The notes under the pieces: generated by a model
Told to the model about the DNA's origin: nothing
Seen by the model: the letters and a program-made list of their open reading frames with translations, nothing else
Database searches by the model: none
In this document: piece by piece, positions 1,820-46,174 of the stretch
How the letters are laid out: each line of letters starts with the position of its first letter
How positions within the stretch are numbered: position 1 is the first letter of the stretch
Position numbers and translations under genes: made by a program
Assembly (NCBI GenBank): GCA_022925895.1
Contig: JAKSYS010000058.1
Location: 88,373-152,372, forward strand
DNA length: 64,000 nt
Origin: Fragilaria crotonensis
Lineage: Eukaryota > Bacillariophyta > Fragilariophyceae > Fragilariales > Fragilariaceae
Direction of reading: 5' to 3'

Positions 1820-4800
1820 ATGAGAATGCAGTCATCCATTTGGCTCCACCCAAGAGAAAGGTATCGGTTCATCAGAAGCTCCGTAAAGTACCTTTGTCGT
1901 GAAACTCGTTTCCGACACAAGTGGCGGACTGCTGACCACCTTGTTGCACTCTGTCATGAGTGGTTTACAATTCCAGAGCCCCTACAATTCAATGCCAATG
2001 ATCTTAATAATGCTTTGTTGAAAGATCCGGCATTGAAGCTAGATATGCAGGCAGAAAAGTCAGCTCCAAACCAGTTTGGGATCTATTACGATACCTACCG
2101 CCCAAAAGATACCAAGCGAAGAAATCATTGTTACTATCTGTGTGATCCAAATGGAAACGATCATGTCCAGAGTCCATCATTAGGAAAGGCTTGGTTTGCC
2201 ACTATCCCAGATATGATGGATGACATAAGGGCACTGGAACGTGCGACCCGAAACAAAGAACAACGGCAGTTTCCGCCCGATGTAATTGACTTGGTGTCAA
2301 TCGCAAAGAACCAAGAAGCAATCCAGTGTAAACGACAAAATAAAGAAGAAGAGGTTGAAAGAGCAGCTAAAAGACTTTGTTGTCAAGACTCTACTCCGAC
2401 AACTAGTCAGCATACCGAACAAGTAGTACCAGCATGCCGTCTTTCCAATCATACTTCTAGTAGCAGCAGCAATCGAGATGAGCAGGAGACGCCGACCAGC
2501 ATAACGATAAAGACGGAACAAGAGTCCGACACAAAGCCCCAGCTTCCTCCAGGATGCAATATCTGGTGGCAGTCGAAACTGGCATTCAAGCTTTTTAATG
2601 CCTCCGAAGACAAGGAGACTGTACTCGACCGAGTTGAGGAATTGATTGCCGTCCTCGACAACGCAAACTCATCTGCTGTCGCCTTCAAAACAATTGTCGA
2701 GGGTTTGGATTCTGAGGATGACGAGGACACAATGAGTGAGCACAAGAAAGAGGACATAAGAATGAAAGCAAGATACCTCGCGCAGGCTTACCGTGTTGCC
2801 ATTGAGGAGATGCCATTCAAGAAGTGGAATGATTGCTGCCGTGATGCAATCGATCAACTTGCTGCCGTTCATATAAAATACATAACGAACGAAAAGTTCT
2901 GCGACGATGGCATGTTCAGTTTTGTAAGAAGAAATTGTTTTCCATCAAGAGAAAGGGCAACAGAGACTTACCTGCTTTCCTAGAGGCACATCCTATTGTC
3001 GTTACTGTGATAAAAGAGTATGGCCGCGCGAATCTTACTGAGCTTTCAGTCGAGATGATGCATTCGTATCTTCACGATACAATTGTAAAATCGCTTGTCA
3101 TGGAACGCCTGCAAGGACAGAATGAAATAATCAATTGTGAGTTTGAAGAAGAGAAGTTGAATCTGTTCCAAGAGTACGGCTTAAGCTGTCTCTGTCGTAA
3201 GACGACTTACCAATGGATGTTGAAGCTAGGATTTCGATATGAAACACGTCGAAAGGGATATTACGTTGACGGACATGAAAGGAAGGCAACAGTTCAATAT
3301 CGGTGGGACTTCTGCGACCGATATCTATCGCTTGAGCGCAGAATGTTTCGGTGGATTCAAGTAAGTCTGGAAGAGGCGGAGAAACTGCAAGCGTTAGGCG
3401 AAGTCACAAAGGGCAGCGGATACAAGTACACCGACGAACTTACCGGAAAAGCAATGGTGGAGTATCATGTTGACACCTGCCGAGGATTCATGGATTGCAT
3501 GAACGAACAAACTATATTTGGCGGAAATCTCAGCGTGCGAATGAATCCGGATGAGCGCCCTGTCATTTCGTTCGGTCAAGACGAATGCATTGTCAAACAG
3601 TATTCATTTACAAACAAGAGTTGGACTGGGCCAAATCGCGAACAGGCACTGATACCAAAAGACGATGGCCTTGGGTGATGATGTCGGATTTGCTTCACGT
3701 GAGTTTGGGTTTGGAGTGTCGCTAACAACCGAACAACTCCAACGCGTGAATGCTAATAGACTTGGAAAGAAATACAAGGATGAGTCGGCGGCCAAGAAGA
3801 AACGAGGAAGCGAATTCAAGCAGCCACTTACCATAAGTCCCTTTGTTCTGGAGTTCGAGTATGGAGCGTCTGCAGAAGGATACTGGACATACGATTCAAT
3901 GGTCCTTCAATTGGAAGACTGCGCTGATGTTGTCACAACTCTGTATCCCCAGTACGACTTCCTTTTCCTATTTGATCACTCATGCGGTCACGATAGAATG
4001 CCCGAAGATGCGCTGCGAGTAGATGGAATGAACAAGGGATACGGGGTGAGCAAAACATCATGAGAGATAGCATTATCAAAGGTGAAGATGGATACCTTGG
4101 ACCACACAACCGCAGTCTCAATGTGGGCGACGTTCAATCTATGGTCTTCCGTTCCACAGACAACGGGCCATACTGGATGACTCCAGAAGAACAAGAGCAA
4201 ACGAGGAAAGATCATTTCGTAACGACGGTTACTACAAAGGAGCACACCAAGCCACAGCTGATTGAGCTGCTCCGGCAGCGAGGCATTGAGAATGCAAAAG
4301 GAAGTAAGAAACATATCAGGAACATGGCAGAGCGCGCAGGCATCTCACTCACTTACCAGAAACAAGATGTGCTTCAAGGCTGGGAAGGAAAAGCAAAAGG
4401 GATGGAGCAGATTCTTTGGGAGCGTGGATGGATTGATCCCAGTCAGGATCGAAGAACCTATACGGTTAATGGTAAAAAAGATTCGATGGGAGCACTCAGA
4501 AAAGACACAAGCCTTCGCTACCTCATGTCAAACCTCAAGGACTTTGAGGGCCAAGAAACGATGCTTCAACTCAAGGCAACGGAGATGGGCGTATTTATGG
4601 ATCGAACTCCGAAATGCCATTGTGAGTTGGCTGGAGAGGGGATTGAATATGCATGGGGATGCGCCAAGAATCATTATCGAAGACAACCTCTGAAGGACAA
4701 GCGCGGAAAGGACAACTTCCGAAGGACAGTGAGAGCATGCTTCTCACGAAATGTGGTGACAACAGAGCGAGTACGACTCTTTTCACAACGCGCCCGAGCA

Positions 4801-5013
4801 TACATGCAAGCATATCACAAAATACGACACAAGCAACTTACCAATTCAGCAACAATGGACTCCGGCATCGACGACGACTCTGCGTCTCCAGTGAAGGTAG
4901 AAAAGGTGCTGAAAGAATTCAAGACACATAGATGCGCCATGGACTTCGACAGCAGCTTCTGTAAGGCTGTATTCCTTAACGATGCTCGTCCTCAGGGCGA
5001 TACGGAAGCATGA
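1820..5013 (+). pseudogene. Frame-broken IS630/Tc1-mariner-like DDE transposase
   Basis: One long transposase-like reading frame is split into four overlapping pieces (1820-2983, 2935-3678, 3665-4063, 4060-5013), and conserved sequence continues across each join. The first piece is a lysine/acid-rich N-terminal region I do not recognise. The second has a YYVDGHER block of the kind seen before the catalytic domain in eukaryotic IS630/Tc1-like transposases, then FGQDE, the probable first catalytic Asp. The third carries FLFDHSCGHD (second Asp). The fourth ends with GEGIEYAWGCAKNHYR, matching the IExxW context of the third acidic residue. Between the second Asp and this Glu lies a SAP-like stretch (LIELLRQRG...GSKKHIRNMAERAG). 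Breaks fall near 2930, 3670 and 4045, so as written no full-length transposase can be made. The DDE assignment is from motif recognition; I could not find terminal repeats. Confidence 0.7.
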
Positions 5014-5831
5014 TCGTCGCGCTTCATGATTCTTGCGTTTGTGTTGTTGGTGTCGAAACTGAAATCTTTATGACATGCGTCTTCAATGATGCCATTTGTC
5101 TACGGTAGTGGCAGTATTAAAATCTCGTACTATTTTTTTTGTATGAAAGCCTACTAAGCCTACTAAGCCTACTTGAGTCACTCTGATATTGTACCCAGCC
5201 ATATGGCTATAGTATGATATTTATTTAGTTTTTTTGCACTCCGATTCTTTCATCACGTATCACGTCAAATGTCGTGCTCTATTGCTGTTGACATTGATCC
5301 TTGATTATCTTCTGATCAGGACCACCTCCCGCGTGGCCTAAGGTCTCAAATTGACCGCCATGAGTAGCTATGATGAGTGGGATCAAAATCTACCCACGCG
5401 GAAAACACACTCCTGCATATGTTTTCTCAATATACACGTCAAGCATGACAGTTTGCCATGCTGTCAACACTGCGCATGTTGATCCCCAAATTCAACATGA
5501 TTGTTAAGTTTCGGTCCAGCAGCCAGCAGTTGACAAGAAGTCTATCAGAATATAATCATTCAACGTTTTGAAGTTGACTTTGACCACAAGGTGCCTCATG
5601 GAGGCATGATGAGCGTCAATGGTGTTCACTCATTGTGAGCGTACATTTTCGTTCATTTGAATTTCGTCAAGTATTCCCGTATACAAAAATACTACATCGT
5701 TGTATACAGATAACTACTCAAGGAGTTTCCTTCCATTAATGGCTAGCTAATTTAATTTATATGAGTGCTACGGTGGCTACCCAAGGTACTTTTTATCTGC
5801 ACCCAGCCATATCATACAGCACAGAGTAGTG
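5014..5831. other. Intergenic; short tandem repeat only
   Basis: No gene seen. Around 5148-5172 a short tandem repeat of cctactaag occurs about three times. The right end abuts the first repeat of the DIRS-type element. Confidence 0.5.
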
Positions 5832-6058
5832 CTAACCATGCCCCAAGCTACGAAGGTACCCAAGACTGACAGACGAGGAACCGGTACACCATTCATTTAT
5901 ACAAACACAGCAACGGTATCAATTCTTTTGAAAAGTCATTTTCAAGAATCGGCACTTTGGAGCAACATCTCATACATACGTCGAACGAGAATAACAACAG
6001 GTTGAAGAGAAAAGACTGATCATCTTTTGGACCCGACTGCGTCGTTATTTTTGATTTC
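5832..6058 (+). repeat. Split direct repeat A1 (5' end of DIRS element)
   Basis: Starts ctaaccatgccccaagctac and ends gttatttttgatttc. It is identical by eye to 14104-14330. The following leader to about 6450 contains a G9 run near 6211-6219 and no convincing coding sequence. Confidence 0.9.
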
Positions 6059-6449
6059 GTCTTCGCTCCGCGTTGTGTAACACGCCTTCAGCTCGTGTGT
6101 TATTGCTTTTATCGGTGGGTGTCATGTCTGCTTTGTTTGGCCTTTCTGCGGGTCGCCCTCGGGCGTCAAGCCCCACTGATCGTGGAGCGGAAGGTATGTA
6201 TCGTGGACGGGGGGGGGTGTTGTTTTGTCGTCGCGTTCTGGCGTCAGTCTCTGGAAAGGGAACGGGTCTGGGCTTGGTGTTTCGTTCTGCGGCGGTGTTA
6301 TCGGCAAAGCTGGTCACAAGATGTGCGTGATGACCGATTGCACAGTCGGTGCACGTTGGACGGAAGGCAGTATTCCCAACGCTGGATGATGGTAGCGACG
6401 AGGCTGTTTTCATTGTCAGCAATGCCGGGGCGCTAACGACGTTCAGTCA

Positions 6450-8341
6450 GTGCACTTAAGCCCATGTGTTGGTACCCTGAAACTTGGCACAAATTTGGAC
6501 CGGTATTTGGAAGAGAGACGCGAAGTGTTAGATTGGGAAACACTATTCAATGGGATTAACGCTCGAGTAGCGGGACGCGAAGGACAAGTTGACGAAGAAG
6601 ACTTCGAACGAATCTCTCGTAAGTTGGATGGAGACTTAGCCATTGGAATGACCCCATTCAAGAAACGGCCTAAGTTGGAGGTGGTTTCGCCTCCGGAAGA
6701 ATTTGAGGACATCTCGGAATTTGCTCTTGAAACGGCTGTTGAGTTGGGCGATGACTTTCTCAACGATGGGTCACTAAGAATGGCAATTCGGAGTCTTGGA
6801 GCGGGGCTCCAATCTATTGGTAATCGTGCGGATAGCAATCGCAGTGCGCTTCGCGCGCTCGCTTACGAGACGAGGGAGGAATTGGAGTTGGTGGATCTGC
6901 AATTGTCCAAACTTAACAGCTTGTTAGGCAAACGCGGTCAAGACGATGGGACTCTTTCGGCTTTCGAAGTGCTCAGGGAACTGGAAGAGCAGGTGGAACG
7001 CTTGCGAAACGCTATTCAACCAGCCATCGTGTTGGCAGCTGATGCTTCCGAGCAATCTGAGTCGATGAAGCGGGAGATTTTTGACACCATGCAAAAAGGG
7101 CTGTGCCCCCCTATTTCATCTTTATCGTCTTTACTCAACCGATGAGCATACTCCGGGTAACTTGCTAAACCAACGCATTCGAAAACTGGAGGCAGGAGTG
7201 TTGGAGTTGATGTCTAAGGTGAACGACTCGGGTGGGCCGGTGTCTATTTCGTTACCACCTTCTCCAGCTCGCACTGGAGCACAATTCGGTTTCAGTTTGA
7301 GCAACAACAACAACACAGACGTGCCGAGTAGTGCAAGGAATCCCGAAGTACGTTTTACAGCCGGAGGAGTAAACGAGCCAGAATCGATGGCGAAACTTTT
7401 GGGGATGGAGATCCAAATCCACGAACTAAAGAACCAGATGCAAGCAAATGCGGTGACTATCGGAGGAAAACTTTTTAAGTCGCGCGCGGACGTTAAATCT
7501 TGGTTGGCTGTGCACGCTGGAGCGTCAGGGTCGTATGTTTTCTTTTCGGATATTCATTCTGTCATGGCGCTCAAAATGGGTGTCACCTTAGATGATGCGG
7601 CAGCGGACGCAGATTTTGAGAGTAAGGTTCGCAAGAACGGATACGCTCACACGGAAGAAGCGAGAGTGGCATCCTCTTTCTCGCGAAGTCTGCCTTCATT
7701 CTTTGGGAAGCCTACGCCCACGGAAGCGAGGAAGCTGCCTGCAGTCAAGAAGCCAGAAGACTGGGAACCCAAAACGATGGGTGATGGAGCGCGAGCAGTG
7801 TTGGATAGGGGCTTGACGGCGGCTGCGAGGGCTACTGTCTAGTGCCAGCGACTTCTTGGTGGGTGAAGGTTTGTTGGTAGCCCAGGCCACCATTCAAGCA
7901 TCGGTCAAGTTCATGACAGATCTATCGACCTGGATGACGCGAGAGTACCTTGAGCTGCTCAAGCGTGGAGGTTCAGAAACTGAATGTTGGGGTCTCATCT
8001 CGCATTGCGTGCGTGCGGTGTTTGAAGACCTTCATGAAGCAAGAATGCCTGGGCGAGGACCTCACATGACTACTGCCGATCGCGCCGCCTCAAGCGCATG
8101 GGGGTGTTTCCAGGCGCAGTTGAAGATGCAGGAGTTTGAGAAAATGGGCTTCGGAGCACACCCCACGCTCAGTTACATCTTGAACATTCACTTGAGGGAT
8201 CACACGGTGTCTCGAGCCACGTTCGATCGTTTGGTGACTCGGTTGGAGGCCGTTGAAGCGGCAGTGAAGGTGAACACGAACACGATTCGCAACACGTCGT
8301 CCAAAGTGGGGGAGATCAAGAAGGTGGCGTTGAAAAGCTGA
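6450..8341 (+). pseudogene. gag-like ORF of DIRS element (two frame breaks)
   Basis: Three consecutive open frames (6450-7145, 7081-7842, 7856-8341) read as one acidic, heptad-rich protein when joined. The first has several helical or coiled-coil-like stretches. The second contains an alanine/lysine-rich domain with a GGKLFKSRADVKSWL phrase. The third continues directly from sequence upstream of its apparent start (LSSASDFLVGEGLLVAQ can be read across 7832-7880) and ends in a heptad-like tail. No zinc knuckle is visible. Position before RT and size fit the capsid-like first ORF of DIRS elements, which is poorly conserved in sequence, so the assignment rests on position. The open frame at 6450 begins at GTG. 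The true start may lie upstream or be spliced in. Breaks fall near 7095-7145 (close to a C6 run) and near 7835. Confidence 0.6.
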
Positions 8342-8392
8342 CAAAGTGCAGGGAGGGAGGAAAATGAAGTCGGAAGGGTGACTAATCGCCCT

Positions 8393-11300
8393 ATGTCTGC
8401 TGGAGTGGATCAGATGATCTCCACCAGACTCCAACTACATGATACGAATAAAGTTAAACTTTCCTTCGTATCCTCCTCTGACCCGCAGGTTTTTTATCTT
8501 TTTGTTGGTCGAAAGGCGCAGGTAGAATGGATTTTAAGCGAAAAACCGTTCGTGGCGAGACGAGAATGTGACCCTGTGTTGGTTTCTCCTGCTAAAGCAT
8601 CTACTGTCACTCTTGCAAAAGATAGTCCGGTGGACGTCTTAATCTTTGAAGGGAAGCCTCCCAAGTCCGATGACCTGGTCTGGGAAGCAATCGAGGTTAG
8701 GAGAATTGCTTGGATTGACGACACAGGAAGAGGCCGATTCAGGTGGGACAACAAGGTGGGTTGGCGCATTCACCGTCGTTCAATCAGCCATGCAGCGATC
8801 GGCGGGGTCACCGACGGGATTTTTTCGGTGTTTCTTGCGAGTCGTGTGGAAGAGGACGTCGGTTGGTGTATCCCAGCGACAGGGGTGCGAGCGACATTAA
8901 GCCGAGTGGTTGATCCTACGAAGGGCGGGCGAGCTGTAGATCCGCCAGTGGCTACCACTGGATCGGTGGAAGCAAGGAATACTGCGAGAGGTCTATTGGA
9001 GTGGAAGAAGAGATTCGATAAGGTTTGTGTCCCAACAGTTTACTCAAAGGATAAGTGGGCAGTGCGGAAACTGAGCGATACCGAGCTAGTCGATGTGTTG
9101 GACCTCCCGGGAACGATGAGGAAGAGGATGAACAGTGGGCAGTTGGCACAGTTGAGCAAGTTGAAGGTTCCAGGAAAAGTGATGGCGGCCGTTGTAGAGT
9201 CTTTGGTAACGTTGGTAACGGACGGTCGAAAAAGAGATGACCTTACACTAGCCGTTAAGAATCTGTCGAGGAAAAGACCGATGGAGGAGGCGCAGGGTGC
9301 CAGTAAGAAAACAAGGCACCTCGAAGGTGACTCGCACTTTGAACAAGCTAAAATGACGAAAGGCAACGGTGAGTCAGAGACGACAATCTCGATTGCGAGG
9401 GTTGAAAATGCTGAAGCAACGGCGCCGGTGGAATTGTCCACGGTTGTTGACAAGGCTGTCAAGTCGGATGACGCGCCGGCTCCAGTACATTTGTTTGATC
9501 GGAGAGTGTTGGAGGCTTTCCCTTTTGTTATCGATAGAGAACGGAATAAATGTGGAGGGAAGCTAGGTTGGGTCGAAGCGCTGGAATTGCTACGCAGTTT
9601 CTGCCTGCACATTTGGAAGCGTAAGGTCCGACGGGAGTTCGTCGAATGGTTGACAAGTCGTAAGAGCACGACAATTGATCTGATAAGCATGGAGAAATTG
9701 GGATGGGACGCGTGTCGACGAGTGGATGGAGCGTCGTTCTGGGAGTGGGACTGTGGGTCTACACCCTTATTTTGGAGGTGGCCCGAAGTCTTTCAGCGGG
9801 ATATCTGGCAAGGTGCTGCCCCAAGGTTTGTGGGTGCACCGCCGACTTCAAAAGAGGCTCAACCAGCGTATGAAGATATGAAGGTGCGAGCGAAGGTGTC
9901 AGCCAAGCTGCAGAAAGTTGTTGATCGGGGGTACATCGAGATCGTGGAGGATGCAGAGAAAGTTAAGTCGTTCATGTTCATGTTTGATGTGCCGAAAGGA
10001 GATTCAGACATCAGAATGGTGTATGATGGTTCACGCAGTGGTTTCAACGAGTCGATCTGGGCGCCCTGGTTTGCTTTGCCAACGGTGGATACAATGACCA
10101 GAACAGTGTTGACAGGAGGCTGGTGCGGAGATCGCGATTTCGGCGAGATGTTTTTGAATTTCATGTTGCACCCCGAGGCAAGGGTTTACTGTGGAGTTGA
10201 TCTGGCACAATTAGATCTTACTGTGCGAGGCCCGGCTGCCAGCAAGGCTACGTTGATTGGATGCTGGACTCGAAATGCGATGGGGCTTCGGTCAAGCCCA
10301 TATTTGTCTGTACAATCCGTCACGAGGATCAAGCAAGCCTTCTTGGGGAACCCCTCGGATCGGGAAAACCCTTTTCATTGGGAAACAGTAGGTTTGAACC
10401 TTCCGGGATCCGAAGGATACGACCCATCAGTGCCGTGGATATCTAAGTTGAGGTATGACAGGACCATCGCCGTTGACCTACACATATATATTGATGACGT
10501 GCGGATTACAGGCCAGTCAAAGGAGTTAGTTTGGAGGGCTGGGTCGCGGGTGGCTAAACTTTGCAGTTATTATGGGCTGCAGGATGCGCCAAGGAAGCTC
10601 AGGGAGCCTAGTCAGACTCCTGGCGCTTGGGCTGGCTCAGTGGTGGCGACGGACGGAGGATGTGTCACAAAATTTGTGACGGACGAACGCTGGGGGAAAA
10701 CTCAAAGGAGTATTCGATGGATCGCGAGCAAGTTGGGCATCGCCGGCGACGACTGGAGTGTTGGGTTACCCGCAGATGAGGACGAAGGAAGGATCCCGCA
10801 GGGGAAGATTCCTCACAAGCAGGCTGAGCGGATTCGAGGGTTCCTGATCTACGTCTCACGTACCTACACGGCAATGGTGCCTTATCTCAAAGGATTACAC
10901 CTGACGCTGGATTTTTGGCGAGGCGGGAGGGACAACGAGGGTTGGAAGATCATCGGAAGGGAGGAGGAAGGGAATGGGAACAAAATGCGTTGTTGTCGAG
11001 TAATCGAAAGGCTCCGCGTTTCGTGTCGGTTGCACCAAGGTTAACGCATGACATCAAAGCGTTAATGGTGTTGACCGCGTTTCAAGAGGCGCCCCGCATG
11101 GAGGTACGAGCAACTAGCACGGCAGCGGCCTATTTGGTGGGAGATGCCTCAGGCTCGGGGTTCGGAGATTGTCTATGGGTGCAAGGTGAGGAAGGCATGA
11201 ATATAGCCTTCGGTTCATGGGACAACGAGGTCAGCGAGAGGTCGTCTAACTTCAGAGAAGGATACAATCTCGTGTTGCGCCTGGAAAATTTGCTTCATGA

Positions 11301-39288: not shown

Positions 39289-39290
39289 TA

Positions 39291-39313
39291 CATCTAAGGG
39301 TGCCAAAACCAAG
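39291..39313 (+). repeat. Left TIR of the 6.9-kb element
   Basis: 23 bp, 22/23 identical to the inverse of 46150-46172. TA immediately outside. Confidence 0.7.
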
Positions 39314-39848
39314 TCGGCTCTTGGATATGAAAAACCAATCATCTTTGATATGATATTTTTTTGCTCATAATGTTTACCTAAAATACAGGTAAAAACTTGG
39401 GACTAAAGAGCTTGTACATCATGTGTATGAAGTGGGTTTCCTCGTATTTCCTGAACTCGGGAAATTTATTTTTCCTGAATTTTTCATCTCTTGCATAGGA
39501 TCTCATACTTTGTATTCCTGAGCTCCAAAATTTCAAATCCTGAAATTCAATGACTCATTTTAACTAGCTTCCAAGTGGAATTCCTGAGCTTTGGGACTCG
39601 AAATATCTGAACTATACCACTTCTTCATTTGTGATCATGAATTTCAATTCCTGAATTTGACATCCGAAAAGAAGAAGTTTGCTGTGTAGTGTGTATGAAG
39701 TAATCACCACAGTAGTTCTGAGCTGACATTGTTCATATAATTGACATACATGTCACGCATTTTAACTTTTGTTGGATATTAGTGTTAATGTGCCTATTCG
39801 TGGCTTTGATGAAGCATTCTTCTATTCATACTAAGTGTCTGATCAATT

Positions 39849-41340
39849 CTAAACTGCCTCCACTTTCACTTCACTGTAGACAAGTTCAGAAGCAAGATGC
39901 CTGGAGTAGTTATCATCCTCCTCATCAGAGTTGTCGTCAAATACATCCATGCACTTGTGTGGGCATTTCTTACCCTTGTCATCAAATTGTTTCCTGACCC
40001 CCTGGCCAGACTCCTTTTTCCTTCTCGACAGAAACATTTTTAGTAGTTCCTGGTTGAATGTTTGGGCTGATTTCTTTCTATCATTCTTGATGGCCATGTA
40101 TAATTCATCGTATTTCCTCATTCCAGCCTGTGACCAATCACAGCCTCCCCCATTATCATGAGCACCCTTGTTCCTGGAGAATGTGTAAAGTGGTGGCTGC
40201 GGAACATGAGAAAAGATTGGTCAGAATTTAGGATGTGGTTTTTTCATTTCACTTATCATAGTGTAACTTACGGGTAGGTTTTTGTTGTCCTCATCTGTCC
40301 ATGTATCGATTTGCTGTTTCCAACAAGTGATAACAAAGCAAGTCAGTTAGTTCCTTGTTGTTTGTTCTGTGACAAACCACTCGGATAAACTTACCATTTT
40401 CTCTGTCTTTACTAATTTGGCAAACCACCTCTTCCCATAGTTGATCAGGCACAGCAAAATGAATGCTTCATTACTTATGGACAGGATTTTCTTGCTCCAT
40501 ACTTTCCTGTCAGTTGTTGCACAGTGGTTCTCCATGTTGTTGATAATGTTATTCCACTTGCTGCTGCCGAGTAAGTGTCTATGATTTGGGCATTGTAGCA
40601 GATGTTATCCCTCATCTTGAGGAGGTAACTGGTTTCATCCTTGCATCCACTGTACAGGCTGTGTCCATATGTTCCTAAATGGGAAGTGAATCCCCTGAAT
40701 GCAAGGTGTTTGATGTTGACAGCAAGTGGGTGTGAGTATGCTCGGGACTTGGCAAAGTACACCCACTTCAAATCCTCACCTTTGAATTTCATTTGCATGT
40801 TTTTTATTGCATTGTTCCGAAGATCAGTGTGTGTTTTTACAACTATTCTCCGCATCCCAAGCCACCAGTTTTCGGTTCCTCGAATGTTTGTGTACTTCAT
40901 GATAAAGCCACAAAGTGTTTTCTCATCTTCACTGAAATGAGAATGATAGTCTTTTTGATAGAACTTCCAAATAGAGAACACGTGTTTTTTCATGCAAGTC
41001 TTGATCATACTGATTTGATTCTCTTCTGAGATTTCCGTCATGCTCATGTCCATTAAGCTGCTTAGCCCTGGAACCGATGATGTTAGTTGGCTGTCACTTG
41101 ATTCCCCGACTTTAATAGTTGAAGGTAGGGATGGTGGATTTCCGTATGCATGCTTCCATCCTTGTTTTGCATCCATTTTCCGTGGCACCAACTCCTCCTC
41201 CTCCTTGTTGTCACTTTGAATCAGATCATTGGGATCTGTGGTCACTGTTGCACGCCTTTTATGAACTCTCTCCTTTGTTTCCTAGAGCTGGGCTTTAAGG
41301 CAGTGATGCCTGCTGCTGTTTCCTGTGGCATTGATGCCAT
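39849..41340 (-). pseudogene. Three-exon gene of unrecognised family inside TIR element
   Basis: ATG at 41340 (MASMPQETAAG). Exon 1 41340-40395, intron GTAAGT...CAG (40394-40314), exon 2 40313-40272 (14 codons: QIDTWTDEDNKNLP), intron GTAAGT...GCAG (40271-40197), exon 3 40196-39849. The phases agree across both introns. Exon 1 has IVVKTHTDLRNNAIKNMQMK and, near its end, DRKVWSKKILSISNEAFILL followed by LINYGKRW. Exon 3 has GCDWSQAGMRKYDELYMAIK and a Lys-rich then acidic tail. I believe related sequences are multi-copy in diatom genomes but cannot assign a domain. Exon 1 holds two single-base breaks: a short A-run (coding strand) near 41255-41260 and one near 40560-40590. Role in the element unknown; a DNA-binding or structural role is only a guess. 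Confidence 0.55.
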
Positions 41341-41602
41341 GGTCGTATTTGTGCTTGCTTGTTGTTGGAAAAACTTTTGATGGTGCACCAAATTTTGAAC
41401 ACTGGAAATCCTTTTGTGGGATAGTATTTTGCGACCATTTGAATTTTGTACCAAGTACCAAGTTCGTAGGTAGGTTCTACACATTCATGCAGAGGTTTTG
41501 AATTTTGAATTCATACCACACCCCTTCATTTTTACATACACCAAAAATGTACCAAAAGTACATGTACAATTTGAATGCATGCTTTCCCAAAATTCTGTGC
41601 TG

Positions 41603-42056
41603 GTGTGCAGCAGTGCATGACATCTGAGATAAAAACGGTACCCGAAGCCGCAGCCGGCCGATTTTTTGCAGAGGCTTTTGGCCGCATCCGGCCGTATGCC
41701 AATATGTGAGCCTGGCCGTACCCGTCTGCAGTCCGACAGTCCCTGCCCGCACAGGGCCGCAGCCGGACTGTCCCTGCCCGTACCCGGACCCGGCCGCAGT
41801 CGTAAGGAAGTACAGTACATAGTACAAACATAGTACACAGTACTGTACTGACAGTACGTTGTCAGCAACCACCGTACCCGTGAAAAATGACAGGTGATCC
41901 GCCCTTTACCCGCGATTGGCCAAAAGTGATAGGAATCGACCGGAGCCGGCCGGAACCGGCCGGGACAGAAATACGCAGCCGCCCAAAATCACGGCCGGCC
42001 CGCGGTTTCCGGCCGGCTGCGGCTAACGGGCCCCGATGTCATGCACTGGTGTGCAG
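41603..42056. mobile_element. GC-rich hAT-type MITE nested in the 6.9-kb element
   Basis: Element 41611-42048 (438 bp) with 14-bp perfect terminal inverted repeats (cagtgcatgacatc) and an 8-bp target duplication gtgtgcag at 41603-41610 and 42049-42056. An 8-bp duplication and a CAGTG start are hAT signatures. Just inside the ends agccgcagccggccg (41646-41660) is inverted at 42010-42024, and the interior is full of ggccg/ccggcc words and cagtactgtac near 41840. It encodes nothing credible, so it is non-autonomous. Confidence 0.85.
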
Positions 42057-42088
42057 TGAATCTGTGCCCTGTCATCTTTTGACATCTC

Positions 42089-43305
42089 ATGTTCACTTCA
42101 CTTGTCCTCTTCAAAATGTTGTCCTCAAAGGCACCCCTGCTCTTCTGTCAAAACCCCTTCTGCCTGAAGTTCAACAAGAAACCATTTTCCAATCAAGCAG
42201 CATATACACAGCATATTGATAGAAACATCGCGTGCTATAATTTCATTGTGAAGAAATCACACCTTGCAGCAACACATGGTGCTTCTGTTTCACACCGTCG
42301 CCGTCTTCATGAGGATGGGAATGTCACATGCACAAGTAACAAAAGGCCTGCTGCCCTTTTAAGGTGACATTTGGTGAATGATCCCTGCATGGATTTTGTT
42401 GGCACAGACAACCTTCTGCAGTACAACCTTCTGTTGAAAGCACTTCTTGTGAGGATATTGAGGACTGCAACAAAAGTGATGATTTGTCCGTGTTAAGTAA
42501 TGACCCAAACATTCTTACCTGTACCAATTCTGCACTTGATGAAGATGTGGAAGCCCCATCATTCATGTGTACTACCGATCAGAAATGGACTGTTTCTCTC
42601 CTCAAGATCCTGGACCATGTCAATGTACCTGACTACACTTTTGGTGAAGTTCTGGAGTGGACACTGGGCACGCTCTGCATCTGCTGATAATTATTCTTAC
42701 AACCCAGTGGGTGGACTCTCACGTGCCAAAAACGTTGATGCCCTAATCAACTCAGTTTGTAATGGGAAGAAACTGCTTCCCTTTGTACAAAGAGTGGATG
42801 TAGATCATGGCTCTCCATCTGATGTGATATGTTTTGATTTCGCTTCACAGTTGCTTAGTTTGCTGCAAAATCCAAGCATTATGACTGCAGAAAACCTTGC
42901 AATTGATATGGACAATGTTGTGTTGGAGCCAGATGCACACCATCCAACCATGAGGACTCTCATTCTGATCAGAATCAAATCGGGTGGGACCAGTCATTCA
43001 TGGGAGGATTTAGTAGGAGGAGTGGTGTTGGCATCAGCGACAACACTTTTATCACACAGTGCCCATGATGACCTTACTTGACAAAGCTTAATGTGGCAAG
43101 CGAGCATCATTCACTTCTTCTGACAGAGATTGTATACTACACTCTGAAAAGAGCAAAACCAAGAAGTCCATGGGCACAACGCGGACTCATGCACAGCAGA
43201 CGCTTGCTTCCAAGCGTGAAGTGCAAAGACAACTCATCAACATGTACAAAACTCACGCAGAAGTTACTCCATCAAGATATTGGCAATCATGATCAGCACA
43301 CATAA
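42089..43305 (+). pseudogene. Decayed transposon-type gene, family not named
   Basis: Pieces in three frames. 42089-42367 carries a degenerate zinc-finger-like start (CQNPFCLKF...AAYTQHIDRN). 42484-42687 has WTVSLLKILDHVNVPDYTFG, and the next frame (within 42500-43081) continues ARSASADNYSYNPVGGLSRA, KKLLPFVQRVDVDHGSPSDV, ICFDFASQLLSLLQNPSIM, AENLAID. The succession resembles a family repeated in diatom and fungal genomes with C2H2-like start and a YxFxPxGGLSRxxNVD block, usually linked to large DNA transposons. I cannot name the superfamily. Downstream (43078-43305 and around 43330-43540) only scraps remain. Divergent from the gene at 39849-41340. Confidence 0.5.
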
Positions 43306-44296
43306 GCTGTCACAACAAATTGGTTCTCAGCCAATGCTTCCATTTTCCGTGAAAGCTACCGGAGGATTAAGCAGCGCGGAGTAGTATGCGATCCATTTGA
43401 GATTATTTCGACAATGGTGAATTTGGCTTTGGCCACAAGTTCCATCCAACAGTACTTTGCGATGGCTACTACACCTCCCAATGTGGAGCCCATCTGTGTG
43501 AGTCAAATGCCCCTTTGTCATAGGCACGTAAAATAGATTTGGTTTTTTGCTGGCATGGATTGGGAGTGGAAGTGGCATCAGTAGCTTGAGGAGCTTTGCA
43601 ATCATCCAGTTCCTCCAACTTTTTGATGCTTTGCTCCGTACTGGAATAAATGTGTATGATTTGTTTGTTGGCTGTTTTTCCTGGACAGGGCGGGGGATGA
43701 ATTTACACCTCATTCATAGCAACTGCTGGTTTGCGAGAGACTTGGGACAGTGATGGATTGTGCAACATTTTGCTGGTTTAAATAAGAATGATCTTGCAAC
43801 TGGCTTGTGTGTATACAACTCTTGAGCATGCAAACAGACAACTGACAAACAGAACCTGTACCGGTAGATCAACCTGGTTTGATTCACTCATATCAATATC
43901 AATGAGAATCTCTCGCAGGTGACCGAATAAAGATTCTGAAGGTCTGATTGCCTTACATGCTCAATCGAAGCACACAAACAGAAGAAGCACATATTCCATC
44001 AAAGCACAACAAAATGAGGCACTCAACATTCATTGTCACAAGCAGCCTCCTAAAAGAAAAAGCAGAACAAAGGCGGGACAATGTGAGATTGAATGCAAAA
44101 CAACAACAAGAAAGAACAATAGTACCAGCCTGCCTGTAACCAATACGATGAAGCAGCAGCATACTGCTGCCAGCGTATTGTAGAAGTACATCGGGATGAA
44201 GGTGCCACAGGACAAGTACAATGACGTATCTTTGTCTTCAACTGGACAGGAACATCAGCAGCTGTACTAGTACTGCTGATGTACAATGCCATCACC

Positions 44297-44506
44297 ACAG
44301 TACTGTACAATGCAGCAGTGTCATAGCGGAGTAGAGGGGAGATCAGTAGAAGTACTACTGGTCTACCGTAGCCTCAGGCTACTCCGAATACTGCAGTCCA
44401 TTGTCATGAGTACTGTAGGTAACACAGTACTGTACAATGCAGCAGTATCACAGTGGAGGAGTGTACTGGAGTACTGGAGTAGTAGTACTGGTTCACCGTA
44501 GCCTCA
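44297..44506. repeat. Two imperfect copies of an ~80-bp sequence
   Basis: acagtactgtacaatgcagc... to ...accgtagcctca at 44297-44376 and 44424-44506, offset about 127 bp. Both are inside the TIR element and rich in cagtactg. Confidence 0.6.
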
Positions 44507-45959
44507 AAGATACTCCAAGTACTACAGTACTACAGTACTGCGGTCGGTGATCGGTGATACCGAAATGAGTACTGTACGTAGGAGGCAGTACCCACACAAC
44601 AGGAGCACCTCAAAAACTCATCATGAGTGTTGATTGATTGAACAAATCAATCAACACTCAAACAATCACCAGGAACAACTCACCAACAAGGAGAGCAAAG
44701 TGTGCTTGGTGGGAAGAGGAAGAAGGGGCGAAGGTGCCGAAGAATGGAGTATTCAATGTGGGGTGACAGCAAGTGGTGGAGTTCAGAAAACAACGAACGA
44801 ATTGATGTGATACTTCGCACAAAAATTCACAGGTAGGGTTCTACGAAGCGCAATACCATGGCTGCATAAGTTTGCATTTTCGAAGCCAGTAGAAATGTAC
44901 AGCATGCACTGGTATTGGTGATGAAAGAAAAAATCAGTATATATGACATGTTCCACCTACAATACCTTTTTTACGTAAGATCTACTGCGTAGTATCATGT
45001 TCTCTCTACGAACAAACAACAAACCAGAAGTACTCGTAGTACGGAATGCCGTTCTACGTTCTACGGATCGCTCTCGCATGCGCAAGAACGGTGTATCATA
45101 AAACGCGCAGACACTTGGCATCATTTGTCATACGAGTAGCTACAGTACGCAATACATGTACACCACCTTACCATTTACATGAAGCACCGTACCAGTACCA
45201 TTCCGTTAATAAACAGTACTCGGAGTAACTGGTAGTAGTACTCCGTACACGACACCATAAACCGCGCCATATCATACCGTATGCCACCATACCATACGCA
45301 TACTGCACCATAGACAGTACACTACACAAGAACTGTAGTTCACCATACGACGTACAAGTACTCGGAGTACACCATAAAAACTGACAGTATTGCTCCAGTA
45401 GGATGGACTCCGTACCACAAACAACACACAACGCACAACAACGTACGGTACTATGTATGAACCATACCAGGGCTTGTAGTACGCCACTACGCCACTTAAT
45501 GCTGATACACAAAACCATGCAGCACACCATACGATACACCGCAACGCCTGGTGCCATGCACAACAAGCATACGAACCATACACAATACAAACAATACACC
45601 ACCATCCTTCATATTCCGGAGTTCGGACTACAAGTACTTGTATATCATACGTAGTACTACTACCATATAACCCAGTGTGCGATAGACGCGATAAACCATA
45701 CTACCATACTTCGTGGTAGAACGTAGACCGTCTACAGTAGACCATGAAATGCGTGTAAACAATAGAACACCGAATATTGCACCAAATACCGTATGTCAGA
45801 AACTGTAAAAAGCTGTATTACTGTACTCGTATACTGTATGGCGCACAGAAGCAACACTCCGTACACAATACACAATCTACAATACACCATGCTCCAGTAC
45901 ATCGTAAACAGCGCATACAGTACCAGCATTTTTATTGATGTCGAAATAATGAAGAAAAA
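44507..45959. other. Low-complexity right interior of TIR element
   Basis: No gene. 45000-45930 is dominated by tac/gtac/ccatac words, which produce long but meaningless Tyr/Cys/Val-rich frames. 45960-46110 has repeated ttcagg/cctgaa words close to the right TIR. Confidence 0.45.
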
Positions 45960-46149
45960 AGCTCAGGAATAATACTGCAGTAGTTCAGGAGTGAAAAATT
46001 TTCTTCATAAAAATGAGGAAACTGCAAACTTCCAAATCCTGAACTAAACAAATAAACCTGAACAACACTTCAGGAATCCTGAACTACATTTGGGAATCCT
46101 GAAATTTTTCCAATACATATGAGAAAAAATTCTTGTATCAACTATGGTA

Positions 46150-46172
46150 CTTAGTTTTGGCACCCTTAGATG
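46150..46172 (-). repeat. Right TIR of the 6.9-kb element
   Basis: 23 bp, inverse of 39291-39313 with one mismatch; followed by TA (46173-46174). Confidence 0.7.
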
Positions 46173-46174
46173 TA

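Follow-up and report, generated by a model that had tools for sequence, protein, structure and literature searches.

What kind of mobile element occupies positions 39291 to 46172 of this 64,000-nucleotide stretch of Fragilaria crotonensis DNA (hereafter the window), where terminal inverted repeats (TIRs) flanked by TA enclose two divergent genes that could not be assigned to any family from the sequence alone? An earlier note on this DNA took the ends to be Tc1/mariner-like and considered that, combined with non-Tc1 genes, they might mark an undescribed transposon group. Our analysis supports a TIR transposon with non-Tc1 genes, and the element is very probably non-autonomous, derived in a diatom from an 11.9-kb DNA transposon that belongs to the Plavaka group (CMCT clade, related to CACTA/EnSpm). 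Its limits and ends are the following:

39291..46172, plus strand: whole non-autonomous element, 6882 bp, delimited by the TIRs, a 2-bp duplication and four full-length matches in its own genome (the window copy counted)
39289..39290: left target-site duplication, TA
46173..46174: right target-site duplication, TA
39291..39314, plus strand: left TIR, which starts CATCTAAGGGTGCC and matches the right end at 23 of 24 positions
46149..46172, minus strand: right TIR
39450..39654, plus strand: left subterminal zone with six CCTGA motifs, element positions 160-360
45963..46103: right subterminal zone with CCTGA four times and TCAGG three times, in part a 20-bp tandem repeat

The inverted arms (39289-39314 and 46149-46174) extend over 26 nucleotides (nt) with 96% matching, the TIR proper accounting for 24 nt with one mismatch, so that the near-perfect TIRs previously counted as 22 of 23 are borne out at slightly greater length, together with TA on both sides of the window element. 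The termini are CATCT..AGATG, and the ends read CATCTAAGG. The subterminal zones described earlier as rich in cctgaa/ttcagg at both ends also withstand a control by shuffling, as the first 450 and last 300 bases of the window element together contain CCTGA/TCAGG 13 times, whereas two rounds of 2000 mononucleotide shuffles averaged 0.83 and 0.85 and reached at most 5 and 8.

The earlier note had proposed looking for further copies with the same TIR, and own-genome searches, covering a 62-Mb assembly of 881 contigs, found the element to be multicopy both by its DNA and by its TIR core, with copies at different sites. The element DNA gave at least 64 matches; as read from the match table, four copies including the window copy match along all 6882 bp, another 12 match in two blocks that leave out query positions 3540-3723, and eleven further loci have mainly the left part of the element in common. 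Furthermore, the 19-nt TIR core with up to two mismatches occurs 121 times in the genome, compared to 0 occurrences for the reversed control. Joining each end to the nearest opposite TIR end among the best 100 of these 121 places yielded 36 elements, with 28 of the 100 listed ends unpaired: 14 elements measure 11.8-12.0 kb, 14 measure 6.7-6.9 kb and eight have other sizes, one of them 1.5 kb. At one locus (L021, C836:1-9900) a 6.7-kb copy is ringed by three more left-part pieces, pointing to nested or rearranged insertions, and at two others (L013 and L019) one insertion stands on two contigs with flanks that are 95-99% identical, pointing to uncollapsed haplotypes or a duplication.

The identity of gene 2 emerges from a full-size relative, the C361 element, to which the end-to-end reading among the 11.8-12.0-kb elements applies. 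This element is 11,884 bp long, has the same TIR with TA on both sides, and carries genes 1 and 2 in the same divergent layout, both somewhat decayed; its ends contain 12 CCTGA/TCAGG motifs (shuffle mean 0.76, maximum 7). BLAST places the outer parts of the window element on it and finds no counterpart in the window element for C361 positions 3246-9629. The stretches by which the two elements were compared are:

42044..42916, plus strand: gene 2 remnant, covering residues 6-314 of the C361 Plavaka transposase frame (765 aa), with the Plavaka domain (315-568) missing, by tblastn and Pfam
43704..44096, plus strand: right-part remnant of the 11.9-kb element (C361 9630-10012, 78%)
44566..44943, plus strand: right-part remnant of the 11.9-kb element (C361 10773-11161, 70%)
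45866..46172, plus strand: right end common to the 11.9-kb element, 86%
41599..42054: G+C-rich stretch (60% GC) recognised by its composition, with no C361 match, in the BLAST gap between query positions 2308 and 2765

The gene 2 frame of C361 (765 aa) matches the Plavaka profile PF18759 at residues 315-568 with E 3.2e-10 and 40.2 bits, against a cut-off of 26.3. Throughout the own genome this profile has 92 matches at E <= 1, some of which fall short of the cut-off, and the family loci above it include C361, C95, C647, C80 and C548, while in 14 control genomes it gave a match in one, below the cut-off. Considering that gene 2 of the window ends right before the Plavaka domain, the window element is a non-autonomous derivative. 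The loss is common to all 16 copies of 6.6-6.9 kb, window included, in which 0 of 254 residues of the Plavaka core are present; at the longer-family loci 252-254 residues are present in 10 of 11, and 0 in the remaining one (L034). Gene 2 can thus be named an N-terminal remnant of a Plavaka transposase, and the proposal of an undescribed transposon group is not supported. The C361 gene 2 protein matched no NCBIfam family, and PDB sequence searches returned nothing below E 0.28. In addition, gene 2 has one viral-contig match with 50% identity, in an IMG/VR contig (L042), where at 2236-7076 the Plavaka-like transposase switches abruptly, within one frame, to unrelated phage-like sequence, and where a further frame is one that we take to be piggyBac-like; this contig is probably a chimeric assembly.

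The flanks of the copies speak to the mode of insertion. A 2-bp flank match was found in 14 of 16 copies (the window and 13 of 15 others), and a 3-bp match in none of the 15 others. The duplicated dinucleotide in these 14 copies is TA in five, TG or CA in six, GA in two and TT in one; because it varies, insertion is not TA-specific, and the ends, previously taken as Tc1/mariner-like, are in fact bordered by a varied 2-bp duplication. Joining the flanks of one copy (L015) with a single GA and searching the own genome gave 19 rows, of which 15 span all 298 nt, five of those at 99-100%, and the other four come from C482 and C402, where the locus is interrupted and each half gives a row of its own. 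This uninterrupted target is direct evidence of the 2-bp duplication. As a side observation, L015 and L016 sit inside a repeated gene, whose translation presumably represents a MULE transposase and whose uninterrupted places include C707, C65, C305, C131, C87 and C765; of the 15 uninterrupted places, 12 have Peptidase_C48 matches at a distance of about 1 kb, which suggests MULEs carrying a Ulp1-like gene.

How well do these ends and this transposase agree with what has been described for the group? In the available text of PMC12730594, the CMCT clade comprises Plavaka, EnSpm, Mirage, Chapaev, Transib, ESTA and Lanisha, mostly with CA..TG termini and 2-5-bp duplications; PlavakaB of fungi is given termini 5'-CATCA..TGATG-3' and 2-3-bp duplications, and PlavakaA termini TGT..ACA. 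Ends of the form CATCT..AGATG with a 2-bp duplication resemble that description of PlavakaB and the CMCT clade. The same text places C(2)C and H(3-4)H of CMCT transposases between the second D and the E. In seven aligned transposases of the family, the aspartates of WIDRT and IQD are invariant, and FHELxH followed by RPE[SA] is found in five of five sequences inspected (L035, L038, L039, L041 and the second frame of L029); on our own reading of the available description, the two aspartates, FHELxH and RPE[SA] would represent D, D, H(3)H and E, respectively. The likeness to Plavaka comprises the C361 domain over the Pfam cut-off, CATC..GATG termini and the 2-bp duplication (2-3 bp in PlavakaB), whereas the probable diatom host, the CATCT form of the termini, gene 1 and several further open frames set the element apart.

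Several observations weigh against the Plavaka assignment or against a simple history of the window copy. Profile searches, proposed in the earlier note for both proteins, gave no Pfam family over the cut-off for the window's own frames (eight frames), and gene 2 was named through its C361 relative, so that the assignment runs through relatives; likewise the distant C175 gene 2 protein has no Pfam family over the cut-off. The C(2)C is present in three of the seven transposases (L039, L040 and L041) and altered in L024, L029, L035 and L038, and the termini read CATCT versus CATCA in the available description of PlavakaB, with four of the five end bases alike. Regarding insertion, two of the 16 copies (L009 and L016) show no 2-bp flank match, some of the copies are not independent insertions, as L013 and L019 have common flanks and L015 and L016 similar ones, and no empty copy of the window element's own target was found in the own genome. 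Moreover, four stretches of the window element, totalling 2640 bp (41599-42054, 42910-43703, 44097-44564 and 44944-45865), have no BLAST match in C361, and the window element is consequently not a simple internal deletion of the C361 copy. The first of these stretches lies between genes 1 and 2, is rich in CCGGCCG-type repeats and is possibly a separate insertion.

The second gene of the element lies to the left of gene 2:

39849..41281, minus strand: gene 1, decayed, in open-frame pieces 40475-41281, 40347-40604 and 39849-40220; putative TNPA-like accessory DNA-binding protein

The two genes are divergent, as described before, and both are decayed, and the sequence motifs reported for them are all present: ISNEAF (40461-40478, minus strand) and GCDWSQAGMRKYDEL (40101-40145, minus strand) in gene 1, and GGLSRAKNVD (42710-42739, plus strand) in gene 2. 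The three-exon structure previously proposed for gene 1 is doubtful, since one frame change looks like a frameshift and the C361 relative reads through in one frame; window gene 1 carries a frameshift when compared with C361, and C361 gene 1 has a stop at another point. A 268-aa piece of gene 1 has 171 own-genome matches, no Pfam or NCBIfam family was found over the cut-off (NCBIfam for two gene 1 frames), and viral contigs had no match to it. Weaker hits of the frames searched, for instance to CbtA_toxin (E 0.0041; 17.6 bits, with the cut-off at 25), were disregarded.

The association of both genes was assessed in a table compiled by hand among the matches listed plus five added places, with 72 gene 1 loci and 109 gene 2 entries (108 when the C5 locus, entered twice, is counted once). 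Among these, gene 2 lies within 12 kb at 62 of the 72 gene 1 loci, at 48 of them within 3 kb, and gene 1 lies within 12 kb at 64 of the 109 gene 2 entries; the other ten gene 1 loci have no compiled gene 2 match within 12 kb. To the question raised earlier of whether the two genes always travel together, the answer is that pairing is common and not universal. A TIR pair apart from the genes, named before as an observation that would speak against the proposal, was found in part, as the 1.5-kb pair in C21 lies on a contig absent among the gene matches listed. Furthermore, C175 gene 1 is 39% identical to window gene 1 and begins about 8 kb downstream of the gene 2 start on the same strand, whereas the two genes are adjacent and divergent in the window; both C175 genes presumably belong to one element.

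A function of gene 1 is suggested by analogy. According to the available text of PMC2613891, TNPA of En/Spm is a second protein that binds subterminal repeats and is required alongside the transposase, and derivatives can be mobilised in trans. Like TNPA in maize En/Spm, the gene 1 product may bind the CCTGA/TCAGG motifs repeated in the subterminal zones. In the full-size relative C361, gene 2 reads rightward and encodes a Plavaka DDE transposase, and gene 1 reads leftward; an active transposase would cut at the CATCT..AGATG termini and insert with a 2-bp stagger, with the gene 1 product as a candidate accessory protein on the repeats. As the window copy lost the catalytic domain and kept its ends, it could have moved only via a relative's transposase acting in trans. 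A wider interpretation is offered tentatively, and we lean mildly against it: diatoms might harbor a distinct Plavaka-like lineage, in which the full-size elements, some 12 kb long, combine the transposase with a DNA-binding partner that had no name so far (gene 1) and was kept through deep divergence despite changed place and orientation, as a TNPA counterpart outside plants.

Besides these two genes, the C361 element (L029/L037) holds further minus-strand frames of 279, 368, 215, 173 and 220 aa at element positions 5375-9859, with no family over the cut-off. One of them, GNAT-like, was set aside as sub-threshold only (16.8 bits against 27), and so were two suspected proteases, Ulp1-like in C175 and papain-like in C361, for which there is no curated profile support and PF02902 has no listed match in either element.

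Among the competing explanations, a separate CMCT lineage, near Plavaka or its sister and distinguished by gene 1 and CATCT termini, survives best; it overlaps with the Plavaka reading without excluding it, and we consider it rather unlikely. A gene 1 without known family argues for such a lineage, as do its differing orientation between C175 and the window, the C(2)C altered in some members and the modest score of the Plavaka match; that score nevertheless lies above the curated cut-off, and termini and duplication length resemble published PlavakaB. A classical CACTA/EnSpm element in place of Plavaka appears highly improbable, even though a transposase with a second protein, subterminal repeats and transposase-less derivatives are also features of CACTA elements in the available text of PMC2613891 (En/Spm, Tgmt*), and the termini are of the CA..TG type. 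The ends, however, are CATCT and not CACTA, the Plavaka profile matched above its cut-off, and Transposase_21 (PF02992) has no genome match, a weak argument since the 14 control genomes are silent too. That a Tc1/mariner-type element, for which TA alone is duplicated, captured two unrelated genes is extremely improbable. The TA flanks of the window copy resemble such an element, whereas only 5 of 14 copies with matching flanks have TA, duplications of TG/CA, GA (as at the L015 target) and TT occur besides it, and gene 2 of the full-size relative is a transposase of a different family, Plavaka.

In conclusion, neither a new transposon superfamily nor a new group having Tc1-like ends finds support, and the element is genuine, yet a disabled member of an already known transposon group, ordinary though little described. 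The most likely host is a diatom; its genome has silicon-transporter domains (PF03842) at 19 places, the best with 646 bits, as opposed to one in the control genomes, below the cut-off, and light-harvesting proteins (PF00504) at 61 places. Among the titles and abstract openings listed in a literature search, none gave an account of Plavaka in diatoms, Repbase, which may hold such families, being outside that search. In the available parts of two other papers, EnSpm-Plavaka is mentioned in a green alga (PMC12633428), and giant repeats flanked by Plavaka are described in Amoebidium (PMC11244446). Our findings add an alga that is most likely a diatom to the hosts of the Plavaka group, and its elements have defined ends, duplications of 2 bp and numerous copies. 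Both full-size and shortened elements are now available for comparison, with gene 1 as a concrete candidate for a second transposition protein of the clade.

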